A stretch of 64,000 nucleotides of DNA from an uncultured bacterium (GTDB taxonomy: Bacteria; Fidelibacterota; Marinisomatia; Marinisomatales; Marinisomataceae), in assembly GCA_943788675.1 (NCBI GenBank), contig CALSRE010000002.1, forward strand, positions 201,371 through 265,370, read 5' to 3'. How positions within the stretch are numbered: the first letter of the stretch is position 1; the number at the start of each line of letters is the position of its first letter. Both the position numbers and the translations under genes were made by a program. The notes under the pieces were generated by a model. It did not search any database. It was not told the DNA's origin and was given only the letters and a program-made list of their open reading frames with translations. This document shows, piece by piece, positions 4,205-10,357 of this stretch.

Positions 4205-4903
4205 ATGTTTATAAACTTAATTGGTATGGATCCAAGCACTTTAACAGGATTCACATTCTTTGTAGTTAATATGGCTTTACTTGCTTCTGCTCTTTTCTTT
4301 TGGTTAGAGAGAGATAATGTAAATCCTAAATGGAAAACATCATTAACGGTTTCTGGATTAGTATGTTTCATTGCTGCGGTACACTACTTCTATATGAGAG
4401 GAAGTGACGGAGTTGAAACTGTTGCTATTAGATACATTGACTGGTTAATTACAGTTCCATTACTTATGATTGAGCTTTACATTGTACTGTTAGCAGTAAC
4501 TAAAGTTAGCTCAAGCGTATTTCAAAAACTTCTTGGTTATACTACTCTTATGCTTGTTTTCGGTTACTTAGGGGAATCTGGCGCAGTTGCAGCTATCAAT
4601 TCAACAACTGGTTTTGTTGCAGGTATGCTTTTCTGGGGTCTTGCTCTAAGAGAAATTTGGTCAGGTGAAGCTGCTGAAGCTAATGCTGGATCAAAAAATA
4701 AAGCTGGTCACTACGCATATGATAACCTAAAGAAAATCGTAACTTTTGGTTGGATAATTTATCCAGCAGGTTACGCTCTAGGTTACTTTGGTGGTGGAGT
4801 TGATATGGATGTTGTAAATCAAGTTTACAATCTAGCTGATTTTGTTAACAAAATTCTTCCAGGTGTCATTGTTTGGGCAGCTGCTAGAATGGATACAAAA
4901 TAA
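4205..4903 (+). CDS. Proteorhodopsin, green-type light-driven proton pump
   Basis: 232 residues with seven hydrophobic helices. Helix C reads RYIDWLITVPLLMIE, giving D79, T83 and E90, the DTE set (acceptor, T, donor) of outward proton pumps. L87 is at the spectral tuning position (Leu = green absorbing; Gln = blue). H60 matches the His that pairs with the acceptor Asp. K216 in NLADFVNKIL is the retinal Schiff-base lysine. There is no clear cleavable signal peptide; the start is fixed by GAGGT 7 bases upstream. It is monocistronic, with its own likely promoter and a strong hairpin terminator. Retinal synthesis genes (crt, blh) are not in the window. Confidence 0.97.
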   Translation: MFINLIGMDPSTLTGFTFFVVNMALLASALFFWLERDNVNPKWKTSLTVSGLVCFIAAVHYFYMRGSDGVETVAIRYIDWLITVPLLMIELYIVLLAVTKVSSSVFQKLLGYTTLMLVFGYLGESGAVAAINSTTGFVAGMLFWGLALREIWSGEAAEANAGSKNKAGHYAYDNLKKIVTFGWIIYPAGYALGYFGGGVDMDVVNQVYNLADFVNKILPGVIVWAAARMDTK

Positions 4904-4918
4904 CCAATTCATTAAAAT

Positions 4919-4953
4919 CAAAAAAAAGGCCTTCAATTGAAGGCCTTTTTTTT
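4919..4953. terminator. Bidirectional rho-independent terminator
   Basis: A perfect palindrome AAGGCCTTCAATTGAAGGCCTT centred at 4936/4937 is flanked by an A run on the left and a T run on the right, so it makes a GC-rich hairpin followed by U's on either strand. It ends the proteorhodopsin transcript (plus) and the kinase/acyl-CoA dehydrogenase transcript (minus), whose stop codon is at 4952-4954. Confidence 0.92.
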
Positions 4954-6109
4954 ATTCAAATAAATTACTTAGCCTATCTTTAACTATAGCCTGCTTAGCC
5001 ATCACTGATAATGATATTACAGCAAGGTTTAGCAGTCCAAATCTTTTATCTTTTGTGAATCCTTTTTTATATCTGAAATATATTTGCTGAGCTATTACAG
5101 CAATCTTAAATAGACCAAATACATAATAGAACACAGGATTATTCACTGTATGTCCAGATTTATTTTCATACATCTCAAGAATGCCTTCTCTGGATGGATT
5201 TCCTTCTAAGGTAGTAGCACTTAATTGGAATAATTGTAATTCTGGCAAGTCATTTCTATCTACCCAATAACCAAGTGTAGTTCCAAGATCCATAAAAGGG
5301 TCACCAATAGTGGCCATTTCCCAATCTAAAACAGAAATGATGTTAGAATAATTATTCTTATCTAATACTAAATTATCATACTTGAAATCGTTATGAATAA
5401 TCGCTTCTTTAGATTCCTTTGGCTGATTTTCATTTAACCATTTTGCAATAAATTCCATATTGCTAATAGAATCCGTTTTTGAATGGTAGTATCTTTTTGT
5501 CCATCCTTCAACTTGTCTTTTAACATAACCATCAATTTTTCCTAAATCATTTAGATTGGCTTGATTTATATCAACTGAATGCAATTCTACAAGTGTGTCT
5601 ACAAGTGAGCTAGATATTTTTTCAATGATTTCTTTACTTGGAGAATTTTTTTGCTGGAGATTGGGTCTTATTATATATCCCTGCACGCGATCCATAATAT
5701 AAAATGGTGCTCCTAAAATATTTTCATCATCGCAAAAAAGATGAACATTTGGAACTTTATGAAACTGAGATTTTAAGTTTTTTAATACCGTGTATTCTCT
5801 TAACATGTCATGTCCACCTTTTAAACTCTTAGCTCCATATGGTGGCCTTCTAAGAACCATTTCTTGTGTAGAATTTTTTAAAAAATATGTTAGATTAGAA
5901 TACCCGCTTGGAAACTGTTTTAACTTTAGATTGCCTGTATCAATATTATTATTTTGTAAGAATACTTTTAGATTTTCTAAAGAAAACTCTTCGCCTGAAC
6001 GAATATTTCTAGGAATATCTTCCTCAAAACCAGGTGTTTTTTTATTTTGAACAAAAAGTGATAATAAGTAGTAAAATTTTAGCTTTAGAGGAACTCTCAA
6101 AACTTTCAC
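4952..6109 (-). CDS. ACAD10/11- and LvaA-like acyl-CoA phosphotransferase (APH fold)
   Basis: 385 residues with the aminoglycoside-phosphotransferase kinase fold. The catalytic loop HNDFKYDN (H239, D241, N246) and the Mg-binding VLDWEMATIGDPFMDL (D262) are intact. SGYSNLTYFL is the nucleotide loop and MVLRRPP carries the likely ATP-contacting residue. The sequence style (RRPP, YGAKSLKGGHDMLREY, DWEMATIGDP) is that of the kinase domain of ACAD10/ACAD11 and of LvaA, which phosphorylate the 4-hydroxyl of 4-hydroxyacyl-CoAs. The start is GTG at 6109, 4 bp after the dehydrogenase stop; no internal Met precedes the fold, and no good Shine-Dalgarno site is seen, so translational coupling is likely. 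The substrate is inferred. Confidence 0.85.
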   Translation of the reverse strand: MKVLRVPLKLKFYYLLSLFVQNKKTPGFEEDIPRNIRSGEEFSLENLKVFLQNNNIDTGNLKLKQFPSGYSNLTYFLKNSTQEMVLRRPPYGAKSLKGGHDMLREYTVLKNLKSQFHKVPNVHLFCDDENILGAPFYIMDRVQGYIIRPNLQQKNSPSKEIIEKISSSLVDTLVELHSVDINQANLNDLGKIDGYVKRQVEGWTKRYYHSKTDSISNMEFIAKWLNENQPKESKEAIIHNDFKYDNLVLDKNNYSNIISVLDWEMATIGDPFMDLGTTLGYWVDRNDLPELQLFQLSATTLEGNPSREGILEMYENKSGHTVNNPVFYYVFGLFKIAVIAQQIYFRYKKGFTKDKRFGLLNLAVISLSVMAKQAIVKDRLSNLFE

Positions 6110-6113
6110 AAAC

Positions 6114-7310
6114 TTATTTTAAGTACTTTTTCATTATTTCTTTAGCAACTCTAGTTTTATGAACCTCATCTGCTCCATCATATATTCTAGCAGAGCGCTC
6201 ATGTCTATATAGTGAAGCTAACGGTGTATCATCAGTCATCCCTAGAGCACCGTGGACTTGGATAGCCCTATCAAGCACATTTTGAAGTACCTGCGCTACA
6301 TAAAATTTAATTGTAGATATTTCTACTTTTGCAGCATAAGCTCCTTCATTATCAATTTTTTTTGCTGCATCTAACACCATTAATCTTGAGGCGTTTATTT
6401 CAGCTCGTGATTCAGCAATCCAATTTTGAACTGTTTGCTTTAAAGCAAGGGGCTTTCCAGGAGCTAATTCTCTTGAGGCTGCCCTTTCACACATCATTTC
6501 AAATGCTTTTTCGCACTCACCAATCCATCTCATGCAATGATGGATTCTACCTGGACCAAGTCTATCTTGAGCAATTTTAAAGCCAGCTCCAACTGGGCCT
6601 AAAACATTTTTTTCTGGAACAATACAATTTTCATACTTTATTTCGGCATGAGCATTCCATCCATCTCCCTCGTCGCCCATAACAGAAATATTTCTTATAA
6701 AGTTAAAACCTTTAGTATCAGTAGGGATAATAATTTGCGATGCTCTCATATATGGATTAGGATTTTCAGGATCTGTTATTACCATTGCAATTGCAAAGTC
6801 TGCTCCATCAGCTGATGAAGTAAACCATTTATGGCCATTAATTACATAGTTAGACCCATCTTTAATGGCTGTTGTACCCATCATAATAGGGTTAGATCCG
6901 GCATAATCAGGCTCAGTCATTGAAAAACAGCTTCTAGCCTTTCCAGTAACTAAAGGATTTAAAAAATTTTCTTTTTGATATTCCGTTCCATGCTCCATCA
7001 ATATTTCCATATTTCCAGCATCTGGTGCTTGACAATTGAATACATATAATCCGTAAAAATTTTGACCTAATATCTCATAGATTTGACCAAGTTGATACAA
7101 GCTTAATCCGAGACCGCCATGGTTTTTGGGGATTTGCGGCGTAAATAAGCCCATTTCTCTCACCTTGTTTCTTTTTTCCTCCAAGAATGGTAAATGATCT
7201 GCAAACTTATGACTTAAATCAAAAGAATTTTCATCTGCAATCATTTCTTCATCGATAAATTGCTGAATTTTAGATTTAATATTTTCAAATTTTTCTGTTG
7301 AAATTGCCAT
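6114..7310 (-). CDS. Acyl-CoA dehydrogenase of the ACAD10/11 (LvaC) type
   Basis: 398 residues, full length. The FAD/substrate loop CFSMTEPDYAGSNP, the GHKWFTSSADGADFAI strand, LGPGRIHHCMRWIG and AIQVHGALGMTDDTPLA are all present. The C-terminal active-site segment reads IYDGADEVHK, with D378 where many acyl-CoA dehydrogenases have the base Glu of YEG; the ACAD10/11 branch carries a DG(P/A)DEVH variant here. In that branch the flavoprotein can eliminate phosphate from 4-phosphoacyl-CoA. It is followed after 4 bp by the kinase gene, so the two likely act in sequence. It starts 8 bp after the histidine phosphatase gene ends. Confidence 0.9.
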   Translation of the reverse strand: MAISTEKFENIKSKIQQFIDEEMIADENSFDLSHKFADHLPFLEEKRNKVREMGLFTPQIPKNHGGLGLSLYQLGQIYEILGQNFYGLYVFNCQAPDAGNMEILMEHGTEYQKENFLNPLVTGKARSCFSMTEPDYAGSNPIMMGTTAIKDGSNYVINGHKWFTSSADGADFAIAMVITDPENPNPYMRASQIIIPTDTKGFNFIRNISVMGDEGDGWNAHAEIKYENCIVPEKNVLGPVGAGFKIAQDRLGPGRIHHCMRWIGECEKAFEMMCERAASRELAPGKPLALKQTVQNWIAESRAEINASRLMVLDAAKKIDNEGAYAAKVEISTIKFYVAQVLQNVLDRAIQVHGALGMTDDTPLASLYRHERSARIYDGADEVHKTRVAKEIMKKYLK

Positions 7311-7318
7311 GACTTCCC

Positions 7319-8017
7319 TTAAATGTATGTTTCTAAATATCTTGGTATAAAACTACGATTAAATGTTTCTAATGTAAAAGTATCATTTTCTTTCGTAAAA
7401 AGTGAAATAGAAGCATTTTTAATTTTAAAGTTTAACTGCATAATCTCTTCAGCTGAAAGTGAATGACATTCAGCGTATATTCCCGTAATTGTTCCTCCAG
7501 AAGACACAACCATAGTCTTTGAACCTTCTTTCATTATTTCAGCAACTTTACCTTTTGCAATCTTAACACGATTTTTAAAGCTTTCATAACTTTCAAAATT
7601 TTTATCTGAAAGATCTAGTTCTTCGTTAATCCATTGTTGAGCGATAATATTGAAATACTTTAAAAATGTTTTCTTTCTCTTCCAAAATGGAATTTCGCTC
7701 ATTAACTCTTTAATATTCTTGTTTGTTTCTAGCATTTTAGGAATAAAATATTGAGCAATTTCCATTAATTGATTCTCAGCAAATTCATCAACAATTATCG
7801 GATTGCTTAAAGTTTGACCATAGCCTTTATTTATACCATTGAAAGTTTGAATATGCCTTTTCATTGGACCTACAACTACATTGTCAAAAACTAAATTTCT
7901 TTTATTTAATTTTTTACCCAACGAAATGGATTGCTTGATACCCTTTTCGCTTAAGTTATCATAATTTTTTTCACCAAATGATGCTTGTCCGTGACGGATT
8001 AGATATAGTTCTGAAAT
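7319..8017 (-). CDS. Histidine phosphatase family protein with likely AUU start codon
   Basis: The conserved catalytic block LIRHGQASFGE lies upstream of any ATG, GTG or TTG that would allow a shorter call. In this frame a TAG is followed by GAG GGG AAT ATT; the ATT at 8017 is preceded by AGGAGG (8023-8028) with 5 bases between. Starting there gives 232 residues beginning (M)SELYLIRHG, the normal family N-terminus, with H9 the phosphorylated His. The second catalytic His (usually V-x-H-G-G) is replaced: VVSSGG, S173. A TTG start at 7921 would remove the catalytic motif. The enzyme may be a weak or altered phosphatase. It sits between the MaoC hydratase and the dehydrogenase/kinase pair, so a phosphoester of that pathway is a plausible ligand. 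Confidence 0.8.
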   Translation of the reverse strand: MSELYLIRHGQASFGEKNYDNLSEKGIKQSISLGKKLNKRNLVFDNVVVGPMKRHIQTFNGINKGYGQTLSNPIIVDEFAENQLMEIAQYFIPKMLETNKNIKELMSEIPFWKRKKTFLKYFNIIAQQWINEELDLSDKNFESYESFKNRVKIAKGKVAEIMKEGSKTMVVSSGGTITGIYAECHSLSAEEIMQLNFKIKNASISLFTKENDTFTLETFNRSFIPRYLETYI

Positions 8018-8028
8018 ATTCCCCTCCT
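8015..8028 (-). promoter_or_regulatory. Strong Shine-Dalgarno site before a non-standard AUU start
   Basis: Reading the minus strand, AGGAGGGG (8028-8021) is followed by AAT and then ATT (8017-8015). The distance from AGGAGG to ATT is 5 bases. It is one of the strongest ribosome sites in the window, which supports initiation here even though AUU is rare; the classic bacterial example is infC. Confidence 0.65.
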
Positions 8029-8032
8029 AAAC

Positions 8033-8488
8033 TTATTCGTAAATCAAAAAAACTTGCTCTGCTATACAAGCAGGTTTACTACTATCTTTTAACTCAACAG
8101 TTACTTCTACTGTTAACTTGGCTCCATTTTTGATTTCTTTAAAATCTTTTAACAAGACTCTTCCTCTTACAAAGCTATTTACCGGCACAGGAGCAGTGAA
8201 TCTTACACGATTTAAGCCATAATTTACACCCATTTTCGCTGATTTAATCGAATAGGTTTCTTCTAAAAATTTTGGAAGCAAGGACAATACAAGAAATCCG
8301 TGTGCAATTGTGGTTTTGAAAGGTGAAAACATTTTTGCTTTTATAGGAGCCGTGTGAATCCATTGTTGATCACCTGTAACTTTACCAAATTCGGAAATTT
8401 GTTTTTGAGAAATTTTTTGCCATTCGCTCAATCCAAGCTCTTCACCAACTAAAGTTTTAGCTTCTGCTAGATTGTTCAAAATCTTCAT
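8033..8488 (-). CDS. MaoC-like (R)-specific enoyl-CoA hydratase
   Basis: 151 residues, the size of single-domain hot-dog R-hydratases. The dyad motif is clear: GDQQWIHTAPIKA with D40 and H45, then TTIAHGFLVLSLLPKF with H63-G64. These enzymes hydrate trans-2-enoyl-CoA to (R)-3-hydroxyacyl-CoA in the cytoplasm. Its stop is about 5 bp before the Shine-Dalgarno site of the histidine phosphatase, so it is the first gene of the acyl-CoA cluster and could take the enoyl-CoA made by the kinase/dehydrogenase pair. Confidence 0.9.
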   Translation of the reverse strand: MKILNNLAEAKTLVGEELGLSEWQKISQKQISEFGKVTGDQQWIHTAPIKAKMFSPFKTTIAHGFLVLSLLPKFLEETYSIKSAKMGVNYGLNRVRFTAPVPVNSFVRGRVLLKDFKEIKNGAKLTVEVTVELKDSSKPACIAEQVFLIYE

Positions 8489-8515: not shown

Positions 8516-9859
8516 TCATACAATATTAAACTTTTTGAAATAAAATTTCATCCAAGCATAAGAGATTATAGCAGCGATCAAAATTGCAAACACTTGTGAG
8601 TACCACACCCATTCTAAGGGCTTGCCAATGTAATAAAAATAATATGATAAAGGAGCAGTCAATATAAGAACTCGAGTAGTTGTTGTAATTAACAGTGGGA
8701 CTCCTTGACCGAGAGCTTGGCAAACTCTAGAGCAAATAACGCTTATTCCAACTGCTGGATAAGCCAGAATAATGACTTTTAAATAAGTTACTCCAATATC
8801 AATAACCATCAAATTAGAACTAAAGATAGGTAAGATTTTTTTTGCTAGCATAAAGAAAAGAATTACACTTATTGTTGTAATTATTACTGCTCTGTTTATA
8901 CCATAATAAACGACCGATAAAAGCTTTTTGTACTCTTTTGCTCCATAGAACATTCCAACAATTGTCGTCAAGCTGATTGCTATTCCTAGAATTGGCATAA
9001 ATAATAACATATCAAGCCTAGAAACAATTTGATATGCCGCAACTGCCTCTGTGGAATAATTAACAAGAATCTTATTCATCACAACCTGTCCAAATGAAAT
9101 AATAAGCATTGATAAAGACGAAGGAATTCCAATTTGAAAGATTTTTGAAATAATATAATTATCTAATGAAAGATTTCTGATATTAAATGATATATAAGTG
9201 GATTTTTTTACAAAGATGATAAACAAGTATGATGCAACCATTGCTATTTGACTTATTATGGTAGCAAATGCAGCTCCTCGAACACCATAATCAAATGTAA
9301 AAATAAGTATTGGGTCCAAGATAAGGTTTAAAACGGTTCCAATTAAACCTATGATCATAGGAATTTTTGTTTCACCCTCTCCAGCAAGAATGGCTCTAAA
9401 AAACATAGAAAATATGACTAATCCCAGGCCAAATGTTAAAATACGTAAATAAGAATACGCAATAGATAAAATTTCTCCTTCAGCCCCCAGGATTGATAGC
9501 AATCCCTCTCCATAAATTACTCCTAGAACTGTCAAAAACATAGTACTTAAAAAACCAATTAAAATAGTTTGAGAAGCTGTTTTTTCAGCATTTTCTTTAT
9601 CTTTTTGTCCGATATATTGTGCTATAGTAGCAGTTGTACCTGTACCTATCCCTACACCAAGACCTATAATAATAAAGAATAGTGGACTCACGAATGCAAC
9701 AGCAGTAACCTCGTCAGCGCCCAGCCATCCAATAAACATTATATCAACTACATTAAAAAGAGTTTGGACCATCATTCCTGCAATAATAGGCATTGCCATT
9801 GTCCACATAGATTTATAAGGATTTGCTATAAAAGCATCTAATCGAGATTCTTTTTGCAT
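8516..9859 (-). CDS. MATE family efflux transporter
   Basis: 447 residues, about 12 hydrophobic segments in two homologous halves. The N-terminal MWTMAMPIIAGMMVQTLFNVVDIMFIGWLGADEVTAVAFVSP is typical of MATE exporters (DinF/NorM-like), as are TTIVGMFYGAKE and SVICSRVCQALGQG. Such proteins export cationic drugs or metabolites against H+ or Na+ across the inner membrane; substrate cannot be read here. It follows msrB with no gap and precedes the MaoC gene by 27 bp. Confidence 0.92.
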   Translation of the reverse strand: MQKESRLDAFIANPYKSMWTMAMPIIAGMMVQTLFNVVDIMFIGWLGADEVTAVAFVSPLFFIIIGLGVGIGTGTTATIAQYIGQKDKENAEKTASQTILIGFLSTMFLTVLGVIYGEGLLSILGAEGEILSIAYSYLRILTFGLGLVIFSMFFRAILAGEGETKIPMIIGLIGTVLNLILDPILIFTFDYGVRGAAFATIISQIAMVASYLFIIFVKKSTYISFNIRNLSLDNYIISKIFQIGIPSSLSMLIISFGQVVMNKILVNYSTEAVAAYQIVSRLDMLLFMPILGIAISLTTIVGMFYGAKEYKKLLSVVYYGINRAVIITTISVILFFMLAKKILPIFSSNLMVIDIGVTYLKVIILAYPAVGISVICSRVCQALGQGVPLLITTTTRVLILTAPLSYYFYYIGKPLEWVWYSQVFAILIAAIISYAWMKFYFKKFNIV

Positions 9860-10357
9860 CTATGTTTCAAAAAGATATAAATACTCTTTATATCCTTTTT
9901 CTTCCATTTCTTTGACAGGAACAAATTGTAGAGCAGCAGAATTAATACAATATCTTAACCCAGTAGGATTTGGTCCGTCATTAAAAACATGACCAAGATG
10001 AGAATCGCCTTCCTTGCTTTTTACCTCAGTTCTTGGCAGAATTAATTCGTAATCTTGTTCAAAAGTGACATTTTTTTTCTCAATTGGTTGATAAAAAGAA
10101 GGCCAACCCGAATTAGAATCATATTTATGTACTGAAGCAAAAAGCGCTTCTCCTGAAACAATATCAACGTAAATACCTGGCTCTTTGTGATCCCAGTATT
10201 CATTATCAAATGCTGGCTCAGTTCCACATGCTTGAGTAACATAATATTGCATATCCGTTAACTTAGATTTTTTCTCTTCCATTGCTTCTTCCATCGTCTG
10301 TGCATTAACGCTTAAACACATTATTGCAATTATTGTATATTTTTTTATTTTTTTCAT
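9860..10357 (-). CDS. msrB: Peptide-methionine (R)-S-oxide reductase MsrB, exported
   Basis: 165 residues. A signal peptide ([16 protein letters not shown], likely cut after about residue 19) suggests a periplasmic enzyme repairing oxidised methionine. The core has [22 protein letters not shown] and [11 protein letters not shown] with C137 as the catalytic cysteine. The paired CxxC zinc ligands of many MsrBs are absent ([10 protein letters not shown] replaces one pair), so this is a zinc-free type. The usual resolving Cys before GWPSF is Ser; C44 in ACGTEPAF is a candidate substitute. Its start is divergent from the TonB receptor gene with 141 bp between. Confidence 0.93.

Follow-up and report, generated by a model that had tools for sequence, protein, structure and literature searches.

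The window analysed here, a 64,000-nucleotide (nt) stretch of the genome of an uncultured bacterium of Candidatus Marinimicrobia (SAR406), carries on its minus strand four genes at 4952-8488, transcribed in the order MaoC-family hydratase, histidine phosphatase (HP), acyl-CoA dehydrogenase (ACAD) and APH-fold kinase. Our results suggest that this operon probably feeds 4-hydroxyacyl-CoAs into beta-oxidation by phosphorylation followed by elimination, with the HP either partnering or restraining the kinase or working as a slow phosphatase. Kinase action followed by elimination is the best supported function of the pair, because the clade of the window proteins lies between two groups whose activity is published and has the same special residues as they do. 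An earlier note on this DNA, made from the letters alone, had placed the four genes in one operon; they do lie on the same strand with tight gaps, of 15, 8 and 4 nt.

The dehydrogenase and the kinase

The ACAD gene (6114-7310, minus strand, 398 amino acids (aa)) encodes a dehydrogenase of the ACAD10/11-LvaC type, predicted to eliminate phosphate from 4-phosphoacyl-CoA. The loop YDGADEVH, which the earlier note had singled out, is present, and Asp378 aligns with the catalytic D753 of ACAD11. Moreover, R250, H258, R261 and D378 correspond to R626, H634, R637 and D753 of mouse ACAD11, the phosphate-recognition and catalytic residues reported to be specific to ACAD10/11 and LvaC (PMC12440821). The Arg/His/Arg triad and the Asp were found in all 63 ingroup ACADs and in none of the 4 outgroup ACADs, 3 of which are the host genome's own paralogues. 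The best PDB matches were human and mouse ACAD11 and a related mycobacterial protein, at approximately 260 bits (261); the best ordinary ACAD reached 151 bits.

In the bootstrapped ACAD tree (42 sequences; a larger quick tree gives the same picture), LvaC, the window ACAD and ACAD11 fall in separate clades, with UFBoot/SH-aLRT support of 100/98, 100/98 and 100/99, respectively. The window clade and the ACAD10/11-like clade are joined as sisters (98/95), and LvaC lies outside both. The whole ACAD10/11-LvaC superclade is monophyletic against other ACADs (100/99, with only 2-4 outgroup rows). Since the outgroup sits on long branches, the placement of the root is less secure than that of the clades. 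The window ACAD lies outside the ACAD10/11 clade proper, in its sister clade, and is 36-40% identical to the LvaC candidates and to ACAD11.

The kinase gene (4952-6109, minus strand, GTG start, 385 aa; PF01636, E=1.7e-43) has both of its motifs intact, HNDFKYDN at residues 239-246 and DWE at 262-264, in agreement with the earlier reading, and the HxD/N/DWE catalytic residues are conserved across approximately 63 kinases. Its best PDB matches were 9o56 (287 bits), the closest solved kinase structure, for which no paper was traced in the literature, ACAD11 (8v3v, 160 bits) and 3dxp (145 bits). The kinase tree is similar to the ACAD tree: LvaA lies outside, and ACAD11 and the window kinase have separate clades, that of the window kinase including HP-linked gammaproteobacterial and Deinococcus kinases. 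The window pair had been likened to LvaA/LvaC and ACAD10/11. The shared superclade and the R/H/R/D residues bear this out, but neither named clade contains the pair: ACAD and kinase also lie outside the LvaA/LvaC clade proper, the LvaC and LvaA candidates forming separate outer clades, and the window proteins belong to a third one. This third ACAD/kinase clade in Marinimicrobia was not found in the literature searched, where most subscription papers were not covered.

Note that LvaA and LvaC denote here candidates picked by operon order in Pseudomonas, not the KT2440 proteins themselves. When Pseudomonas putida lvaC was sought by similarity of the ACAD, first in 59 Pseudomonas genomes and then in 299, ubiquitous solo ACADs came up and not the lva operon, which was located through DUF6285 instead. 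The candidate operons read as sigma-54 regulator, APH, DUF6285, ACAD, SDR and AMP-ligase, which is the lva order. Between the two candidate groups, identity is 59% for the kinase and 78% for the ACAD, exactly as published for P. citronellolis versus P. putida. The LvaC candidates are only 36-38% identical to ACAD11, which does not match the 62% and 56% published for LvaC versus ACAD10/11 (PMC11342911).

Two observations were made on the side in these genomes. LvaB corresponds to Pfam DUF6285 (PF19802), listed as of unknown function; it occurs in 14 of 199 Pseudomonas genomes and adjoins the kinase at the lva-like loci examined (for example L252, 5643-5996). A stand-alone ACAD10/11-like dehydrogenase with no adjacent kinase was present in approximately 97% of the 299 Pseudomonas genomes (for example loci L213 and L217), and its partner may be an HP-linked APH-fold kinase encoded elsewhere in the genome (for example at L149).

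As in the P. putida LvaA/LvaB/LvaC system, the window has kinase and ACAD in one operon with the same four ACAD residues, and the same two-step chemistry would be expected. The two systems differ in that the window ACAD is 36% identical to the LvaC candidate and the kinase 25% to the LvaA candidate, no LvaD or LvaE lies beside the window operon, and LvaB has no match in the window's genome. Mammalian ACAD10 and ACAD11 (8v3u, 8v3v, 2wbi) likewise combine a kinase with an ACAD carrying the R/H/R triad and the Asp base, whereas in the window the genes are separate, the ACAD belongs to the sister clade (approximately 40% identical to ACAD11) and a MaoC gene is present.

The order MaoC-HP-ACAD-APH is kept in all genomes of the genus with an intact contig. 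Since order and residues are both conserved in approximately 20 genomes of the genus, the operon is not a chance arrangement, and the conservation that the earlier note had asked about extends well beyond the strain. Relatives of the same taxonomic order have SDR-ACAD-APH, without an HP. Adjacency of ACAD and APH was seen in these relatives and in at least 6 phyla.

The altered histidine phosphatase

The HP gene (7319-8017, minus strand, ATT start, 232 aa; PF00300, E=2.8e-17 for the full protein) encodes a protein with the branch 1 histidine phosphatase fold and the RHG nucleophile that lacks the second catalytic His. Its AlphaFold2 model (pLDDT 93) matched phosphoserine phosphatase, PGAM5 and PhoE in Foldseek. 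The phosphatase had been called altered, and it is so at one point only: SSGG stands where the canonical SHGG is expected, placing Ser172 at the site of the second catalytic His (H2). This residue is normally needed for the transfer chemistry in the histidine phosphatase superfamily. Ser occupied H2 in every member of this SSGG subfamily examined, at approximately 96 loci (a few genomes were counted twice, and most members were gathered by a scan with the N-terminal RHGQAS motif only), and Arg7, His8 (the nucleophile) and Arg53 were kept. Wherever H2 is readable in the HP paralogues of these genomes, it is His. In a profile search, the subfamily scored at least 164 bits and other histidine phosphatases at most 42.

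The open reading frame (ORF) listed for this gene, with TTG at 7921, is too short; it begins at an internal start and leaves out the catalytic motif. The open frame extends to 8026, reads SELYLIRHGQASFGEKNYDNLS and includes the catalytic LIRHGQASFG. A ribosome-binding site, AGGAGG, lies at 8028-8023 on the minus strand, and 5 nt later comes an ATT at 8017-8015. Ahead of the RHG motif, several genus mates have no in-frame ATG, GTG or TTG; in two others, the codon that is ATT in the window is ATG. The ATT is the probable start, and several genus mates share it. Conserved ATT starts are rare. That the alteration was an artefact of the shortened TTG ORF was ruled out: the full protein has RHG, and the change sits at H2.

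Outside the window's phylum, the order HP-ACAD-APH was found in at least 4 other phyla; it occurs in Alteromonadaceae, Microbulbifer, a Pseudomonas, Desulfomonile (Thermodesulfobacteriota), a Myxococcota and a Spirochaetota. Public plasmid records and named genomes place the HP subfamily next to kinase, ACAD and SDR genes in Azoarcus, Burkholderia, Azospirillum, Pseudoalteromonas, Streptomyces, Deinococcus and others, Sulfitobacter has an HP-kinase run with the same subfamily, and in Deinococcus radiodurans the HP lies with SDR, MaoC, ACAD and kinase genes. The HP-APH-SDR-ACAD clusters of Azoarcus, Burkholderia, Marinobacter, Deinococcus and Streptomyces share with the window the subfamily with Ser at H2 and the same kinase and ACAD superclades. 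They differ in having an SDR and often another order, whereas in the window's genus the SDR is absent and the order is MaoC-HP-ACAD-APH. At 41 of 80 loci with the HP pattern, an ACAD and/or a kinase lay within 6 kb, against approximately 1% expected by chance (a rough reckoning, many loci being related). At the other 39, mostly in Comamonadaceae and Pseudomonas, the HP was without either, and ORF-level blastp confirmed a lone HP at loci where tblastn had seemed to miss genes. No HP-kinase fusion was present among the ORFs examined; long HP frames reflected upstream read-through only.

A second HP type (RHGxVxYF), with the His intact, adjoins LvaA-LvaB-LvaC in some Pseudomonas and a kinase-ACAD pair in Paraburkholderia (loci L257, 5806-6513; L259, 4829-5545; L261, 5980-6801; L268, 3899-4612). 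Two bacterial HP types therefore stand beside such kinases, so that phosphatase folds joined them at least 2 times in bacteria, in addition to the HAD fold in ACAD10. In P. citronellolis LA18T, a histidine phosphatase encoded, as in the window, with kinase and ACAD lies beside lvaA/lvaC homologues and was suggested to dephosphorylate 4-phosphovaleryl-CoA (PMC6692424, 2019). Judging by its counterpart in P. capeferrum (L257), it is probably of the intact RHGxVxYF/VSHD type and not SSGG. The earlier note took the combination with an altered histidine phosphatase to be undescribed. Since a histidine phosphatase in this setting was reported in 2019 and such clusters are plentiful in databases, kinase-ACAD-SDR-histidine phosphatase runs being common in public records, this does not hold for histidine phosphatases generally. 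It seems to hold for the altered type: the papers searched, with the same coverage as above, included none on a Ser-substituted histidine phosphatase tied to acyl-CoA metabolism, and uniform loss of H2 in a kinase-linked HP subfamily seems undescribed in them.

ACAD10 also carries a degenerate phosphatase-fold domain, of the HAD fold where the window has a histidine phosphatase. This HAD domain has lost one Asp of its DxD, is negligibly active as a phosphatase and holds its kinase in check (PMC11342911). By conservation and by this analogy, we favour a regulatory role for the HP as partner of the kinase, or a partnership with altered chemistry and slow activity. The wider claim, that a subfamily spread over at least 7 phyla and uniformly without the second His is the regulatory partner of 4-hydroxyacyl-CoA kinases, matching the unrelated HAD domain of ACAD10 and perhaps LvaB, is advanced tentatively and is rather doubtful as it stands. 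If true, disabled phosphatases would have been recruited independently to restrain the same metabolic kinase. A stand-alone bacterial protein with a parallel loss, tied genetically to a kinase of this type, would allow the role of the degenerate ACAD10 domain to be studied in simple systems.

A serious rival is that the HP is active despite the change from His to Ser and dephosphorylates 4-phosphoacyl-CoA or the free acid, either as dead-end repair or as a step replacing elimination. The nucleophile His8 and the phosphate-binding Arg7 and Arg53 vary little or not at all, the fold agrees with that of active phosphatases, and the intact second type lies next to kinases of this kind in Pseudomonas and Paraburkholderia. 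Moreover, phosphate removal was proposed for the P. citronellolis enzyme (PMC6692424), and free 4-phospho acids were seen in mammalian cells (PMC11342911). However, the second catalytic His is replaced by Ser in every copy examined, and full dephosphorylation would set up a futile ATP cycle against the kinase. We regard this activity as possible, while leaning against it.

The proposed pathway

In the first step of the proposed pathway, the APH-fold kinase would use ATP to phosphorylate the 4-hydroxyl of a 4-hydroxyacyl-CoA. The ACAD, with Asp378 and FAD, and with R250, H258 and R261 holding the phosphate, would then oxidise the product, eliminate phosphate and re-reduce it to a 2-enoyl-CoA; both steps are predicted from clade membership and residues. 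From its family and position, the MaoC protein (8033-8488, minus strand, 151 aa; PF01575, E=1.5e-23) would hydrate the 2-enoyl-CoA to a 3-hydroxyacyl-CoA. The Asp and His of the hydratase are present, since GDQQWIH can be read in its sequence, and MaoC lies upstream of the HP throughout the genus. A FadB-like protein (3HCDH) and a thiolase, encoded together with another ACAD in a beta-oxidation cluster of the host genome, would complete the cycle. The HP would most likely assist or restrain the kinase, or slowly dephosphorylate 4-phosphoacyl-CoA and so limit its build-up, as has been proposed for the degenerate HAD domain of ACAD10. Our guesses at substrates are lactones, oxylipins and lipid peroxidation products of the surface ocean.

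The function of LvaC and ACAD11 is published (PMC11342911, PMC12440821), and phylogenetic position between them suggests 4-hydroxyacyl-CoA kinase and elimination activity for the window pair. Several points weigh against this pathway. The published ACAD biochemistry is confined to the clades that bracket the window's own, the C-4 position of the hydroxyl is inferred, and no SDR or CoA ligase adjoins the operon. The trees are not fully congruent: the gammaproteobacterial and Deinococcus kinases group with the window kinase, and their ACADs with ACAD11. The pair has therefore recombined between lineages, both partners always coming from the same superclade. Regarding the HP, approximately 40 of the 96 genes lie apart from kinase and ACAD, so that it may have another role, and Ser at H2 could still sustain slow catalysis.

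The kinase and ACAD might apply the same chemistry to another hydroxylated or amino acyl-CoA, for example a 5-hydroxy, branched or ring-derived one. The window ACAD clade is distinct from both characterised clades, at 36-40% identity to LvaC/ACAD11, and the levulinate-type genes (DUF6285, SDR, ligase) are not adjacent; however, all three clades share the phosphate-contact triad and the Asp base, and both bracketing clades use 4-phosphoacyl-CoA, which makes such a substrate unlikely. That an ordinary ACAD merely happens to lie beside an unrelated APH-type kinase is very improbable, given the superclade support of 100/99, the absence of the signature residues from the host genome's other ACADs and the adjacency of ACAD and APH in order relatives and at least 6 phyla, although broad family models say only acyl-CoA dehydrogenase and phosphotransferase. 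With phosphorylation and elimination of 4-hydroxyacyl-CoAs, the recently solved pathway for 4-hydroxy acids would reach, by way of a third ACAD/kinase clade, into the abundant SAR406 bacteria of the ocean and into many other phyla, and the HP would be a concrete, testable partner protein.

Host genome and neighbouring genes

The host genome, of approximately 1.0 Mb in 2 contigs, is 95.7% complete. It has three ACADs besides that of the operon, and the operon kinase is its sole PF01636 gene. Directly upstream of MaoC lie genes for a MATE exporter and MsrB (8516-10357, minus strand), in an order kept in the genus; they are possibly co-transcribed with the operon, and no pathway role is assigned to them. 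A terminator-like intrinsic hairpin of 16 pairs (4919-4954, minus strand) lies 3' of the kinase, between the operon and a convergent rhodopsin gene.

Read by eye (IDWLITVPLLMIE), the rhodopsin gene (4205-4903, plus strand) encodes D-T-E and has Leu as its tuning residue. Its nucleotide identity to some genus mates is 94, 89 and 83%, against 85, 75 and 74% for the flanking kinase gene, and it is missing in several lineages. Since its identity exceeds that of the flanking genes and its presence is patchy, these sequence comparisons suggest exchange of the rhodopsin gene within the genus. Beyond it, at 798-2972 on the minus strand, lie genes for a crotonase, a 4HBT thioesterase, a DCC1-like oxidoreductase and a DUF1295/steroid-reductase-like protein, in an order kept in the genus.

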